From Gammaproteobacteria bacterium (lineage in GTDB: Bacteria; Pseudomonadota; Gammaproteobacteria; SZUA-229), in the NCBI GenBank assembly GCA_024636785.1, contig JAGXGK010000015.1, positions 140,349-204,348 of the forward strand: 64,000 bases of DNA, read 5' to 3'. Both the position numbers and the translations under genes were made by a program. Shown here piece after piece: positions 59,251 to 64,000 of the stretch (within the stretch, counting starts at the first letter, position 1; each line of letters starts with the position of its first letter). The notes beneath the pieces were generated by a model. That model was not told the DNA's origin and did no database searches. It saw only the letters and a list, made by a program, of their open reading frames with translations.

Positions 59251-60435
59251 ATGAGCGATTATGTAGACGACGGCAATGACGGCTTTGCCACACGCGCGGT
59301 GCGTGCCGGGCAGGTGCGCACGCATGAAGGCGAACACGGCGAACCCATCTTCCCGACTTCGAGTTTTGTTTTCGCCTCCGCCGCCGAAGCCGCCGCCCGT
59401 TTCTCCGGTGAACAGCCGGGCAACATCTATTCGCGCTTCACCAATCCCACCGTGCGCACGTTTGAAGAGCGCCTGGCCTCGCTGGAAGGTGCTGAACGCT
59501 GCGTCGCCACCGCCTCGGGCATGTCGGCGATCACCAGCACCTTTCTCGGCCTGTTGAGCGCGGGCGATCACATCGTCTCTTCGCGCAGCATCTTTGGCAC
59601 CACCACGGTTCTGTTCACCAGCTTCATGGCCAAACTCGGCATCGCCACCACCTTTGTCGATCTGCCCGACCTCAATGCCTGGGAAACAGCGATCACGCCC
59701 AAAACCAGATTGCTGTTTCTGGAAACCCCCTCCAACCCGTTACTCGATCTGGTGGATATCAAAGCGCTCGCTGAAATCGCGCACCGCAAAGACTGTCTGC
59801 TGGTGGTCGATAACTGCCTGTGCACCCCCGCGCTGCAACAACCGCTGGCACTGGGTGCCGACATCATTATTCACTCCGCCACCAAATACATCGACGGCCA
59901 GGGTCGCTGCATGGGTGGCGCAGTCTGCGGCACGCATGAAATAGTCGGCGGCGGCGTCTACGGATTTTTGCGCTCCGCCGGTCCCACCATGAGCGCGTTC
60001 AACGCCTGGGTGTTTTTAAAAGGGCTGGAAACACTGCAACTGCGCATGAAAGCCCATTGCGAAAATGCACAGGCACTGGCCGAATGGCTGGAACAGCAGC
60101 CCAACGTGAAACGAGTCTATTATCCCGGTCTGCCCAGCCATTCTCAGCACATGCTGGCCAAACGCCAGCAGAGCGGTTTCGGTGGTCTGGTCTCCTTTGA
60201 ATTAAACGGTGGCAAGGAAGAGGGCTGGAAGTTGATCGATGCCACGAAGATGGTTTCCATCACCGCTAATCTGGGCGACACCAAAACCACGATCACGCAT
60301 CCGGCCACGACCACGCATGGGCGGTTAACACCCGAACAAAAACAGGAAGCGGGGATTTCAGATGCTTTGATTCGAGTCGCTGTGGGGCTGGAGGATATTG
60401 AGGATATTAAGGCGGATTTAGCGAGAGGCATGTAA
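59251..60435 (+). CDS. metZ: O-succinylhomoserine sulfhydrylase
   Basis: Cys/Met PLP family: DDGNDGFATRAVRAGQVRTHEGEHGEPIFPTSSFVFASAAEAAARFSGE; HSATKYIDGQGRCMGGAVCG. Confidence 0.94.
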   Translation: MSDYVDDGNDGFATRAVRAGQVRTHEGEHGEPIFPTSSFVFASAAEAAARFSGEQPGNIYSRFTNPTVRTFEERLASLEGAERCVATASGMSAITSTFLGLLSAGDHIVSSRSIFGTTTVLFTSFMAKLGIATTFVDLPDLNAWETAITPKTRLLFLETPSNPLLDLVDIKALAEIAHRKDCLLVVDNCLCTPALQQPLALGADIIIHSATKYIDGQGRCMGGAVCGTHEIVGGGVYGFLRSAGPTMSAFNAWVFLKGLETLQLRMKAHCENAQALAEWLEQQPNVKRVYYPGLPSHSQHMLAKRQQSGFGGLVSFELNGGKEEGWKLIDATKMVSITANLGDTKTTITHPATTTHGRLTPEQKQEAGISDALIRVAVGLEDIEDIKADLARGM

Positions 60436-60685: not shown

Positions 60686-60793
60686 CCGAGCACTTCAACG
60701 TTGCCAACGGGTCGGCCTGACTCGCATCCATGCTCGACAGGCCTCACTTTGCCATCCATGGCAAAGTGACCCTACCAACGTTGAAGTGCTCGG
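60686..60793. repeat. 18-bp perfect inverted repeat enclosing a smaller palindrome
   Basis: CCGAGCACTTCAACGTTG (60686-60703) / CAACGTTGAAGTGCTCGG (60776-60793); internal CACTTTGCCATCCATGGCAAAGTG. Confidence 0.93.
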
Positions 60794-60963
60794 CAAGGTG
60801 AATGGGGATTTTAAAAACGCTTTTCTATTTCATGCTAGCGCATGAAGAGAAACACGGTGTAATGCTCTGCGTTTATTGTGCTCTACGTGCTATTATATTT
60901 AACAATTGACTATATTAGCAGTAAAAGTTAGTTTACATTTTCTTATAGGGTAAAAATACTGAA

Positions 60964-62121
60964 ATGTTAGTTTCAAGAATAACGTTAAAAAACTGGAGAA
61001 ATTTTCGAAAGCTTGATTTGGCTTTACGCGACAGGGTGTTTATTGTTGGGCCAAATGCTGCTGGTAAATCTAACTTATTAGATGTGTTTCGATTTTTACG
61101 AGATATAGCTAAGTCTGATGGTGGGGGGCTACAAAAGGCTGTCAAGGAAAGAGGTGGTGTTTCTAAAATTAGGAGCTTAGCTGCCCGTAGAGATCCCTTA
61201 ATTGAAATTGAAATAGTATTATCAGAAGCAGTTGATGATGTGCCATTGTGGAAATACTCAATAGGTATTCGGCAGGAAACAAGAGGATATAGGCAAGCTA
61301 CGTTAGATTATGAGCGTGTATGGAAAAATGGAAATCAGATACTAAATCGACCTGATAGTAATGATAGAAGCGATCCGGAAAGATTAAAACAAACATTTCT
61401 AGAGCAGGTAAACACGAATTCTGAATTCCGTGAAATACCAAAATATTTACAGTCAGTTACGTATCTCCATCTTGTGCCACAATTATTAAGATATGCGAGT
61501 TCTTTTAAAGGCTACACTTTAGAAGATGATCCATTTGGCCAGGGCTTTTTAGAAAGAGTAGCTAAGTGTCCATCAAGAACACAAAAATCAAGACTTTCTA
61601 AAATTGAAAATGCACTTAAGGTTGCCGTGCCTCAGTTACAACAACTTAAATTTGAGCGAGATGCTGAAACTGGTAGACCCCATCTCGCTGCCTTACATTC
61701 ACATTGGAGACCAAATGCAGGATGGCAGAGGGAGGATCAATTTTCTGACGGAACACTTAGATTAATTGGATTACTTTGGTCTTTGCTTGAAAGTGATTCA
61801 TTATTGCTACTAGAAGAGCCGGAGCTATCTTTAAATTCAGGGATAGTTTCAAAGTTAGCACCCTTAATATATAGGATGCAGAGACAAAGAAAAAGACAAG
61901 TTATTGTGAGTACTCATAGTGAAGCGTTACTCAGTGACGCAGGTATTGATGGTAGAGAAGTTTGTTTGCTAACTCCTAGTACTGAAGGTACAAGCGCAGA
62001 AGTAGCGGCCCAAGTTGATGATATTTTGGCGTTGCTTGATGCAGGTCTATCTGTAGGAGAAGTTGTTCTTCCGAGAACTATTCCTGAAGGAATAGAGCAG
62101 CTAGATATTTTTGATGAATAG
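60964..62121 (+). CDS. AAA/ABC-class ATPase (AAA_21/OLD-like, RecF-related)
   Basis: MLVSRITLKNWRNFRKLDLALRDRVFIVGPNAAGKSNLLDVFRFL (Walker A); FSDGTLRLIGLLWSLLESDSLLLLEEPELSLNSGIVSKL (signature + Walker B); RQVIVSTHSEALL (H-loop). Confidence 0.92.
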   Translation: MLVSRITLKNWRNFRKLDLALRDRVFIVGPNAAGKSNLLDVFRFLRDIAKSDGGGLQKAVKERGGVSKIRSLAARRDPLIEIEIVLSEAVDDVPLWKYSIGIRQETRGYRQATLDYERVWKNGNQILNRPDSNDRSDPERLKQTFLEQVNTNSEFREIPKYLQSVTYLHLVPQLLRYASSFKGYTLEDDPFGQGFLERVAKCPSRTQKSRLSKIENALKVAVPQLQQLKFERDAETGRPHLAALHSHWRPNAGWQREDQFSDGTLRLIGLLWSLLESDSLLLLEEPELSLNSGIVSKLAPLIYRMQRQRKRQVIVSTHSEALLSDAGIDGREVCLLTPSTEGTSAEVAAQVDDILALLDAGLSVGEVVLPRTIPEGIEQLDIFDE

Positions 62122-62731
62122 TATTTATATTACACTTGCTGTTGAAGACCTGTTAAGTGAAGTGGTTTTAAGGAAAATCATAGAGCAGGTTGATACGAAT
62201 TTTTGTGTTAACGTGTGTTTAGGTAGAAAAGGGAATGGATATCTGAAGAAGAATATTAATGCATTTAATTATGCAGCCCAAAAGATCCCTTATTTGGTAT
62301 TAACTGATCAAGACTCGGTATGTAATTGTCCACCTAGAATTATTGATAGTTGGTTTAAGACAAAAGTCAGCCCAAATATGATATTTCGAGTAGCAGTAAT
62401 GGAAGTAGAGGCTTGGGTACTTGCACATAGAGAAGAGTTTTCTAACTTTTTGGGTATACCAACTATTCGCATACCTAATGATGTTGATACAATTGAAAAC
62501 CCAAAAGAATTTTTAGTTAATCTTGCTAGGAAAAGTAGAATTAGAAGATTGAGGGATGATTTGGTACCAAGAGATGGATCGACTGCTTCTATAGGGCCTG
62601 ATTATAATAATAGGCTTTCTGGATTTATTAATGATATCTGGGATGTGAAAGTAGCAATCAACCATTCTGATAGTTTAAATAGGGTTTTTCTAAAGCTACA
62701 AAATTTTGAGCCTGTAAACCAGATTGTATAA
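62114..62731 (+). CDS. TOPRIM/DUF4276-like protein paired with the upstream ATPase
   Basis: MNSIYITLAVEDLLSEVVLRKIIEQ ... PYLVLTDQDSVCNCPP (E...DxD pattern) ... VAVMEVEAWVLAHREEFSNFLGIP; ATG 62114 overlaps the ATPase stop by 8 nt. Confidence 0.7.
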   Translation: MNSIYITLAVEDLLSEVVLRKIIEQVDTNFCVNVCLGRKGNGYLKKNINAFNYAAQKIPYLVLTDQDSVCNCPPRIIDSWFKTKVSPNMIFRVAVMEVEAWVLAHREEFSNFLGIPTIRIPNDVDTIENPKEFLVNLARKSRIRRLRDDLVPRDGSTASIGPDYNNRLSGFINDIWDVKVAINHSDSLNRVFLKLQNFEPVNQIV

Positions 62732-63166: not shown

Positions 63167-63228
63167 AAACTGGGGTCAGATCACAATACTTGCTAATATT
63201 AGCAAATACTGTGTTCCGACCCCAGTTT
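63167..63228. repeat. 62-bp near-perfect palindrome with GGGGTCAGATC ends
   Basis: AAACTGGGGTCAGATCACAATACTTGCTAAT / ATTAGCAAATACTGTGTTCCGACCCCAGTTT, 27/31 paired, followed by TT. Confidence 0.85.
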
Positions 63229-63262: not shown

Positions 63263-63766
63263 ATGATTATAGACCTGAGTAACTTTACACCTAGTGATTA
63301 TGCAGCTTGGTGGGGTGCAGCTGTAGCATCTCTAGCTCTTCTGTGGAACGTGGTAGCCGCAGTTAGGTCTGGCCCGCGAGTAAAGGTCACTGTGACCCCT
63401 GAGATGCAGATATTTCCGAATCAGGCGCCAACCTACGATAAAATATATGTGGCTGTTCGAGCTGTCAATGTTGGCACTGGAAAAACTACGATTACACATT
63501 GCGCAGGTTATTACACCACCAATATTCTAGGCGTACTTCTAAAAAAATATCGACAGCCTTTTATGATAAACATCAATAACCAAACTGGTCATCCTGTTCC
63601 CTTTATCCTCGATCCTGGCACAGAGTGGGCAAATCTCGCTGATCAGGAGTTTTTGATGGAACGAACTGAGAACGGCCGTGTTTACTTGGGCATTATTCAC
63701 AATCAAAGAAAGCGACCAATTTACAAGAGGGTTAAGCTCAAGGGTGGTACCAGTGAAAACACCTAA
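63263..63766 (+). CDS. Hypothetical protein with N-terminal TM segment
   Basis: DYAAWWGAAVASLALLWNVVAAVRSGPRVKVTVTPEMQIFPNQAPTYDKIYVAVRAVNVGTGKTTITHCAGYY; stop TAA lies inside ACCTAAC. Confidence 0.65.
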   Translation: MIIDLSNFTPSDYAAWWGAAVASLALLWNVVAAVRSGPRVKVTVTPEMQIFPNQAPTYDKIYVAVRAVNVGTGKTTITHCAGYYTTNILGVLLKKYRQPFMININNQTGHPVPFILDPGTEWANLADQEFLMERTENGRVYLGIIHNQRKRPIYKRVKLKGGTSENT

Positions 63767-63932: not shown

Positions 63933-64000
63933 ATGCCACGATTCAAAGATTATGACTATAACCAGATGAAAATGATTCCGCTTTCATTTGATCGTCAAAT
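63933..64000 (+). mobile_element. N-terminus of a transposase (IS1182-type resemblance), truncated by window end
   Basis: ATG at 63933 after GGAAGG; MPRFKDYDYNQMKMIPLSFDRQ. Confidence 0.65.

Follow-up and report, generated by a model that had tools for sequence, protein, structure and literature searches.

Identification of a complete HEC-01 gene pair

Near the end of a 64,000-nucleotide stretch of a Gammaproteobacteria bacterium genome (contig JAGXGK010000015.1, positions 140,349 to 204,348 of the forward strand, assembly GCA_024636785.1; hereafter the window), two overlapping genes, here called A and B, almost certainly belong to HEC-01, a named candidate system that is already catalogued. 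Judged from profile comparison, they make up a complete HEC-01 system of the PDLC04180/PDLC04194 subfamily, and we consider it probable that they provide a defence in which an ATPase controls a nuclease of the TOPRIM type. The pair and the motifs discussed below are as follows (all on the + strand).

60964..62121, +, gene A, HEC-01A, an AAA_21/RecF-OLD-type ATP-binding cassette (ABC) ATPase of 385 amino acids (PADLOC, Pfam, Foldseek)
61048..61071, +, Walker A GPNAAGKS, residues 29-36 (G29-S36) of A (sequence and conservation)
61741..61764, +, ABC signature-like motif FSDGTLRL, residues 260-267 of A (sequence and conservation)
61801..61833, +, Walker B and catalytic Glu LLLLEEPELSL, residues 280-290 of A (sequence and conservation)
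61909..61920, +, H-loop STHS, residues 316-319 of A (sequence and conservation)
62114..62731, +, gene B, HEC-01B, a divergent DUF4276 protein of 205 amino acids with a predicted TOPRIM fold, putative nuclease effector (PADLOC, AlphaFold2, Foldseek, hhalign)
62144..62146, +, putative catalytic Glu E11 (AVED) of B, after strand 1 (conservation; model strand E4-10)
62306..62314, +, putative metal-binding D65-x-D67 (LTDQDS) of B, end of strand 3 (conservation; model strand E60-65)
62402..62416, +, E97-x-E99-x-W101 motif (EVEAW) of B, after strand 4 (conservation)

Assignment to HEC-01 is based on the profile models of PADLOC-DB. Protein A matches HEC-01A (PDLC04180) over residues 1-381 of its 385 (E=2.8e-158, 525 bits), and protein B matches HEC-01B (PDLC04194) over residues 1-200 of its 205 (E=8.9e-65, 216 bits); PADLOC families other than HEC-01, namely AriA (PDLC02980, E=2.1e-33), AbiLi, mad3 and GajA, are far weaker on A. 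An earlier note on this DNA had described a pair of candidate defence type, comprising an ATPase and a TOPRIM/DUF4276-type protein, and had seen in it a subtype that it could not match to a named system and a candidate for an undescribed one. The description holds, supported by the family matches, the predicted topology of B and the co-location of homologues, and the proposal of an undescribed system is rejected because both proteins match the HEC-01 models over their full length. The pair has a system name because HEC-01 is listed both in the PADLOC-DB models and in published DefenseFinder output, for instance that obtained for Desulfovibrio piger (PMC12724379). The abbreviation HEC is short for Hma-embedded candidate (PMC12988326), and HEC-01 is attributed to a 2024 preprint of Payne et al. 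(10.1101/2024.01.29.577857) in passages of PMC12988326 and PMC11411939. Antiviral activity has been stated for HEC-06 and other HECs (PMC12988326). We found no published mechanism for HEC-01, and literature searches on DUF4276, or on HEC-01 together with PADLOC, returned nothing.

Gene A encodes an intact ABC-type ATPase

The open reading frame of gene A is intact and begins with ATG. All of the ATPase motifs named in the earlier note are found in it, and within an alignment of 16 close A sequences many of their residues show little or no variation: G29, N31, A32, G34, K35 and S36 of Walker A, S261, D262, G263, L265, R266 and L267 of the signature-like motif, and E284, E285, P286, E287 and S289 of the Walker B region are invariant, and H318 of the H-loop is nearly so (it is Q in locus L003). 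Pfam assigns the protein to AAA_21 (E=1.6e-38, 134 bits against a cut-off of 27). When the AlphaFold2 model, with a predicted local distance difference test score (pLDDT) of 86, was searched with Foldseek, PtuA of Septu/retron systems was the best match, followed by Rad50, the SMC head and GajA, and A resembles GajA and OLD in its fold and in its N-terminal sequence.

Gene B encodes a divergent DUF4276 protein with a predicted TOPRIM fold

Gene B starts with ATG at 62114, which gives the 205 amino acids and the 8-nt overlap with A (end 62121) that had been reported before; an automatic list of open reading frames places a TTG start 3 nt earlier (62111, 206 amino acids). The E...DxD pattern noted earlier is present and conserved among homologues, with E11 invariant in 17 close B sequences and D65 and D67 conserved in at least 90% of these and also of the 39 sequences of the wider family, in which E99 is invariant and E97 and W101 are again conserved in at least 90%. 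Because motif residues are conserved and the PADLOC matches are full-length, the motifs of A and B are beyond what chance would produce.

The earlier note had also proposed a check for a TOPRIM fold in B. The AlphaFold2 model, built on the 39-sequence alignment (pLDDT 95.4, predicted template modelling score 0.90), has the strand and helix order of TOPRIM (b-a-b-a-b-a-b), that is, an alternating core with E11 after strand 1 and the DxD of D65 and D67 ending strand 3. When this model was compared with the PDB by Foldseek, the three top matches were the C-terminal regions of OLD proteins (E=8.5e-3 to 3.1e-2, probability 0.96-0.66), and among viral models the best match was an RloB-like protein (probability 0.99 but E=0.02). 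These matches lend support to a TOPRIM fold, although none of them reaches E=0.001. No credible PDB match for B was found by sequence search. Pfam DUF4276 (PF14103) scores 14.3 bits on B, under the gathering cut-off of 30.2; by sequence, B is nevertheless best classed as a divergent DUF4276 relative, because 35 of the 39 aligned homologues match DUF4276 at E<=0.01 and hhalign joins the close B group to distant DUF4276 HEC-01B proteins at 98.7%.

A and B are coupled across homologues

A B-type match was found in 45 of the 399 genomes sampled from the phylum. Wherever loci were fetched for these matches, an A-type ATPase adjoins B, with the sole exception of locus L025, which is truncated by a contig end; the co-location of homologues elsewhere, which the earlier note had asked about, is thus borne out. 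The order is A then B wherever both could be expected on the contig, and the start of B falls between -8 and +8 nt from where A ends in all 16 close pairs that are complete. Distance matrices of A and B from these 16 pairs are correlated (r=0.76, permutation p=1e-4), a result that shared species history can also yield. One locus apparently without B (L058) has the start of B before its contig ends. A 782-amino-acid frame at that locus was considered as a possible fusion of A and rejected, as its extra N-terminal part has the look of a reading frame left open in high-GC DNA, and A is followed there by the start of B. Searches of plasmid and phage collections gave no relatives of B, and for A gave partial ATPase matches only.

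The stretch behind metZ, where the pair lies, differs among congeners

Upstream of the pair, metZ ends at 60435. The pair has a GC content of 38-39%, lower than the 59% of metZ (59-60 kb) and the 48% at 60-61 kb, so the AT-rich character claimed for the pair relative to core genes is confirmed. The pair had also been placed between metZ and a transposase; metZ stands, and the identity of the reading frame beginning at 63934 as a transposase could not be confirmed, given that window and contig both stop (contig position 204348) after its first 22 codons.

The patchy distribution of HEC-01 points to horizontal acquisition, and the pair is best read as a recent arrival at a junction behind metZ that is itself variable. 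A strong HEC-01A match occurs in 1/54 genomes of the order, that of the window itself, and in 8/369 genomes sampled in the class, counts to be read with the varying completeness of the genomes. Four congeners are syntenic with the window up to and including metZ, after which synteny is lost; it extends furthest, to 60884, in one of them (locus L067). The junction is variable because what follows metZ differs between congeners. G790 has membrane-type proteins there, and G789 has a convergent gene that was interpreted as ptsP; G791 (L068:6185-11669) carries an NTP_transf_8 nucleotidyltransferase-like gene and two different AAA_15/OLD-type ATPases, together with a pair of reading frames interpreted as an IS3-type transposase. 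The contig of G787 is too short beyond metZ to judge. Defence-type genes have been received at this junction more than once, and the content in G791 suggests an insertion site for defence genes.

Other features were observed around the pair. Between metZ and gene A, a palindrome-rich stretch common to locus L067 holds an Rfam TwoAYGGAY match on the minus strand (60688-60796, 53.6 bits, gathering threshold 43). No RNA component of the pair was found, since no Rfam match overlaps the two genes. Downstream, a near-perfect 62-nt palindrome (63167-63228; AAACTGGGGTCAGATC...), resembling a miniature inverted-repeat transposable element (MITE) or a repetitive extragenic palindromic (REP) sequence, occurs three times in congener locus L068 (9689, 13884, 14469). 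It is followed, still before the contig end, by a reading frame of 167 amino acids with a hydrophobic N-terminal stretch (63263-63766), for which no family match above threshold was found.

Some relatives are embedded in restriction operons

One relative of the window pair is found at locus L054, where HmaA, a TmtA-like protein, HEC-01A, HEC-01B, HmaB and HmaC follow one another in this order, so that the pair sits inside a complete Hma system; the best models for its A and B, PDLC04180 and PDLC04194, are those of the window's subfamily. Locus L055, like the others described next, is of the same subfamily, and its pair has type III-type genes on both sides: a methylase, whose end is ~10 nt before A, and a restriction protein. 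Two contigs from one genome (G441) place a pair after a type III-type methylase (L059) and before a type III-type restriction protein (L060). The two HEC-01 pairs differ from each other, and each is found where its contig ends (L059:12-1831; L060:8366-9888); they are possibly tandem in one operon that was split by assembly. A further HEC-01 (L035:8001-9742) is carried by a 51-kb viral contig that represents a P2-like prophage; it comes behind a Dam-type methylase and near P2 GpU-type tail and lysis genes. Embedding in restriction operons is therefore real but is not the rule, because the remaining inspected loci are mostly between housekeeping genes.

Proposed mechanism and alternative explanations

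In the mechanism that we favour, A and B would be produced together, most likely from the coupled genes, and A, as an ABC-type ATPase, may form an oligomer that holds or positions B, serving as sensor and scaffold. An infection cue would bring about an ATP-dependent rearrangement of A by which B is activated, and B, as a metal-dependent TOPRIM nuclease, would then cut host or phage nucleic acid; phage growth would be stopped, probably through growth arrest or abortive infection, as in PARIS and OLD/Gabija. The proposed roles of A as sensor or scaffold and of B as effector are drawn by analogy with PARIS, in which a hexamer of the ATPase AriA retains the TOPRIM protein AriB until a phage trigger releases it (PMC12409363; PMC9122126), and AriB, once released, cleaves tRNA (PMC12409363). 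As for the target of B, its fold points to OLD and the gene plan to PARIS.

Several observations weigh against this mechanism. Region 172-185 of the A model is predicted poorly, and the match of B to OLD (6nk8, E=8.5e-3, probability 0.96, template modelling score ~0.45) just misses significance. Most close relatives, like the window pair, are flanked by housekeeping genes and are not in defence islands (in locus L002, for example, the neighbours on either side are murA and a peptide release factor gene), and no restriction system was found beside the pair in the window. Finally, a literature search that did not include the defining preprint found no published phage protection or nuclease activity for HEC-01.

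Two alternatives are narrower versions of an ATPase-controlled TOPRIM nuclease defence, and our confidence in them overlaps with that in the broader mechanism. The better of the two, possible if somewhat doubtful, is a DNA nuclease like OLD or Gabija, in which a stable complex of A and B would cut or degrade DNA, including phage DNA, with access under the control of ATP. The C-terminal TOPRIM regions of OLD are the closest solved folds to B, and A matches GajA and OLD in fold and N-terminal sequence, but the ATPase and TOPRIM parts are on separate genes here and fused in OLD and Gabija, and no GajB-like helicase gene adjoins the pair in the window.

We regard as unlikely the other version, a PARIS-like guard of restriction, by which HEC-01 would sense phage inhibitors of restriction-modification, much as Ocr is sensed by AriA, and would then use its TOPRIM protein to cleave a component of translation such as tRNA. 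In Hma and type III-like systems, close relatives do separate the methylase gene from the nuclease gene, and PARIS, with the same two-gene plan, senses anti-restriction proteins (PMC9122126; PMC12409363). However, a restriction context is visible in only 4/18 close loci, such embedding is also expected for any gene that hitch-hikes in restriction operons, and B is not a DUF4435 protein. Slightly less likely again is that the PDLC04180/PDLC04194 subfamily is a distinct guard, residing inside restriction operons and triggered when they are disarmed by phage, with a DUF4276-type TOPRIM effector unlike AriB and a nucleic-acid target of its own.

The tight overlap, patchy horizontal spread and housekeeping-gene neighbours would also fit a toxin-antitoxin or selfish maintenance module, with B as toxin, A as antidote and no primary anti-phage role. 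This we find improbable: PARIS, which shares the plan, is not a classic toxin-antitoxin pair, and deletion of ariA is non-toxic (PMC9122126). Some relatives of the pair are, moreover, embedded in defence operons. A role in DNA repair or recombination unrelated to phages, for which the RecF/Rad50/SMC type of fold of A and a TOPRIM partner as in RecR, which also has this fold, might be cited, is very hard to credit, as the remaining 53 genomes of the order do without the pair, which is therefore dispensable, relatives of the pair occur within Hma and restriction operons as well as in a prophage, and B groups with DUF4276 HEC-01B proteins.

Comparison with known systems

Relative to HEC-01 as found elsewhere, the window pair has both genes in the same order and matched over full length, and the same subfamily is embedded in Hma in locus L054, whereas the pair in the window has neither Hma nor restriction genes beside it and is found by itself downstream of metZ. 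It shares with PARIS the two-gene plan of an AAA ATPase and a TOPRIM effector, and A, as an AAA_21 protein, is an ATPase of the PARIS type (AAA_15/AAA_21), although it matches the AriA model far less well than HEC-01A. Published detection of PARIS, however, calls for a DUF4435 (PF14491) effector at 27 bits (PMC9122126). Membership of PARIS is rejected, as B has no PF14491 match, belongs to the DUF4276 group and aligns only weakly with DUF4435 in hhalign (7%), yet with the E and DxD motifs in register.

OLD and Gabija GajA have a related ABC ATPase, and the OLD TOPRIM region is the nearest solved structure to B, but in both the two parts form one polypeptide where the window has two reading frames. 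Septu/retron PtuAB likewise combines an ATPase, PtuA being the best structural match of A, with a separate nuclease; PtuB is an HNH nuclease, in contrast to the TOPRIM-like B. The ATPases of RloB-like and MADS mad3 pairs are also related, and RloB-like proteins carry an E...DxD...E-W pattern, but in profile comparison B shows next to no similarity to RloB (0.8%), and the MAD3 cut-off of 420 bits is far above the 67 reached by A.

The window thus offers a complete, intact and compact (1.8 kb) copy of HEC-01, in which the alignment pinpoints residues for mutation, and its relatives in Hma and methylase/nuclease operons suggest a link to restriction that can be tested. Rather than being a new system, the pair adds the DUF4276 group to the ATPase and TOPRIM defence plan common to OLD, Gabija and PARIS.
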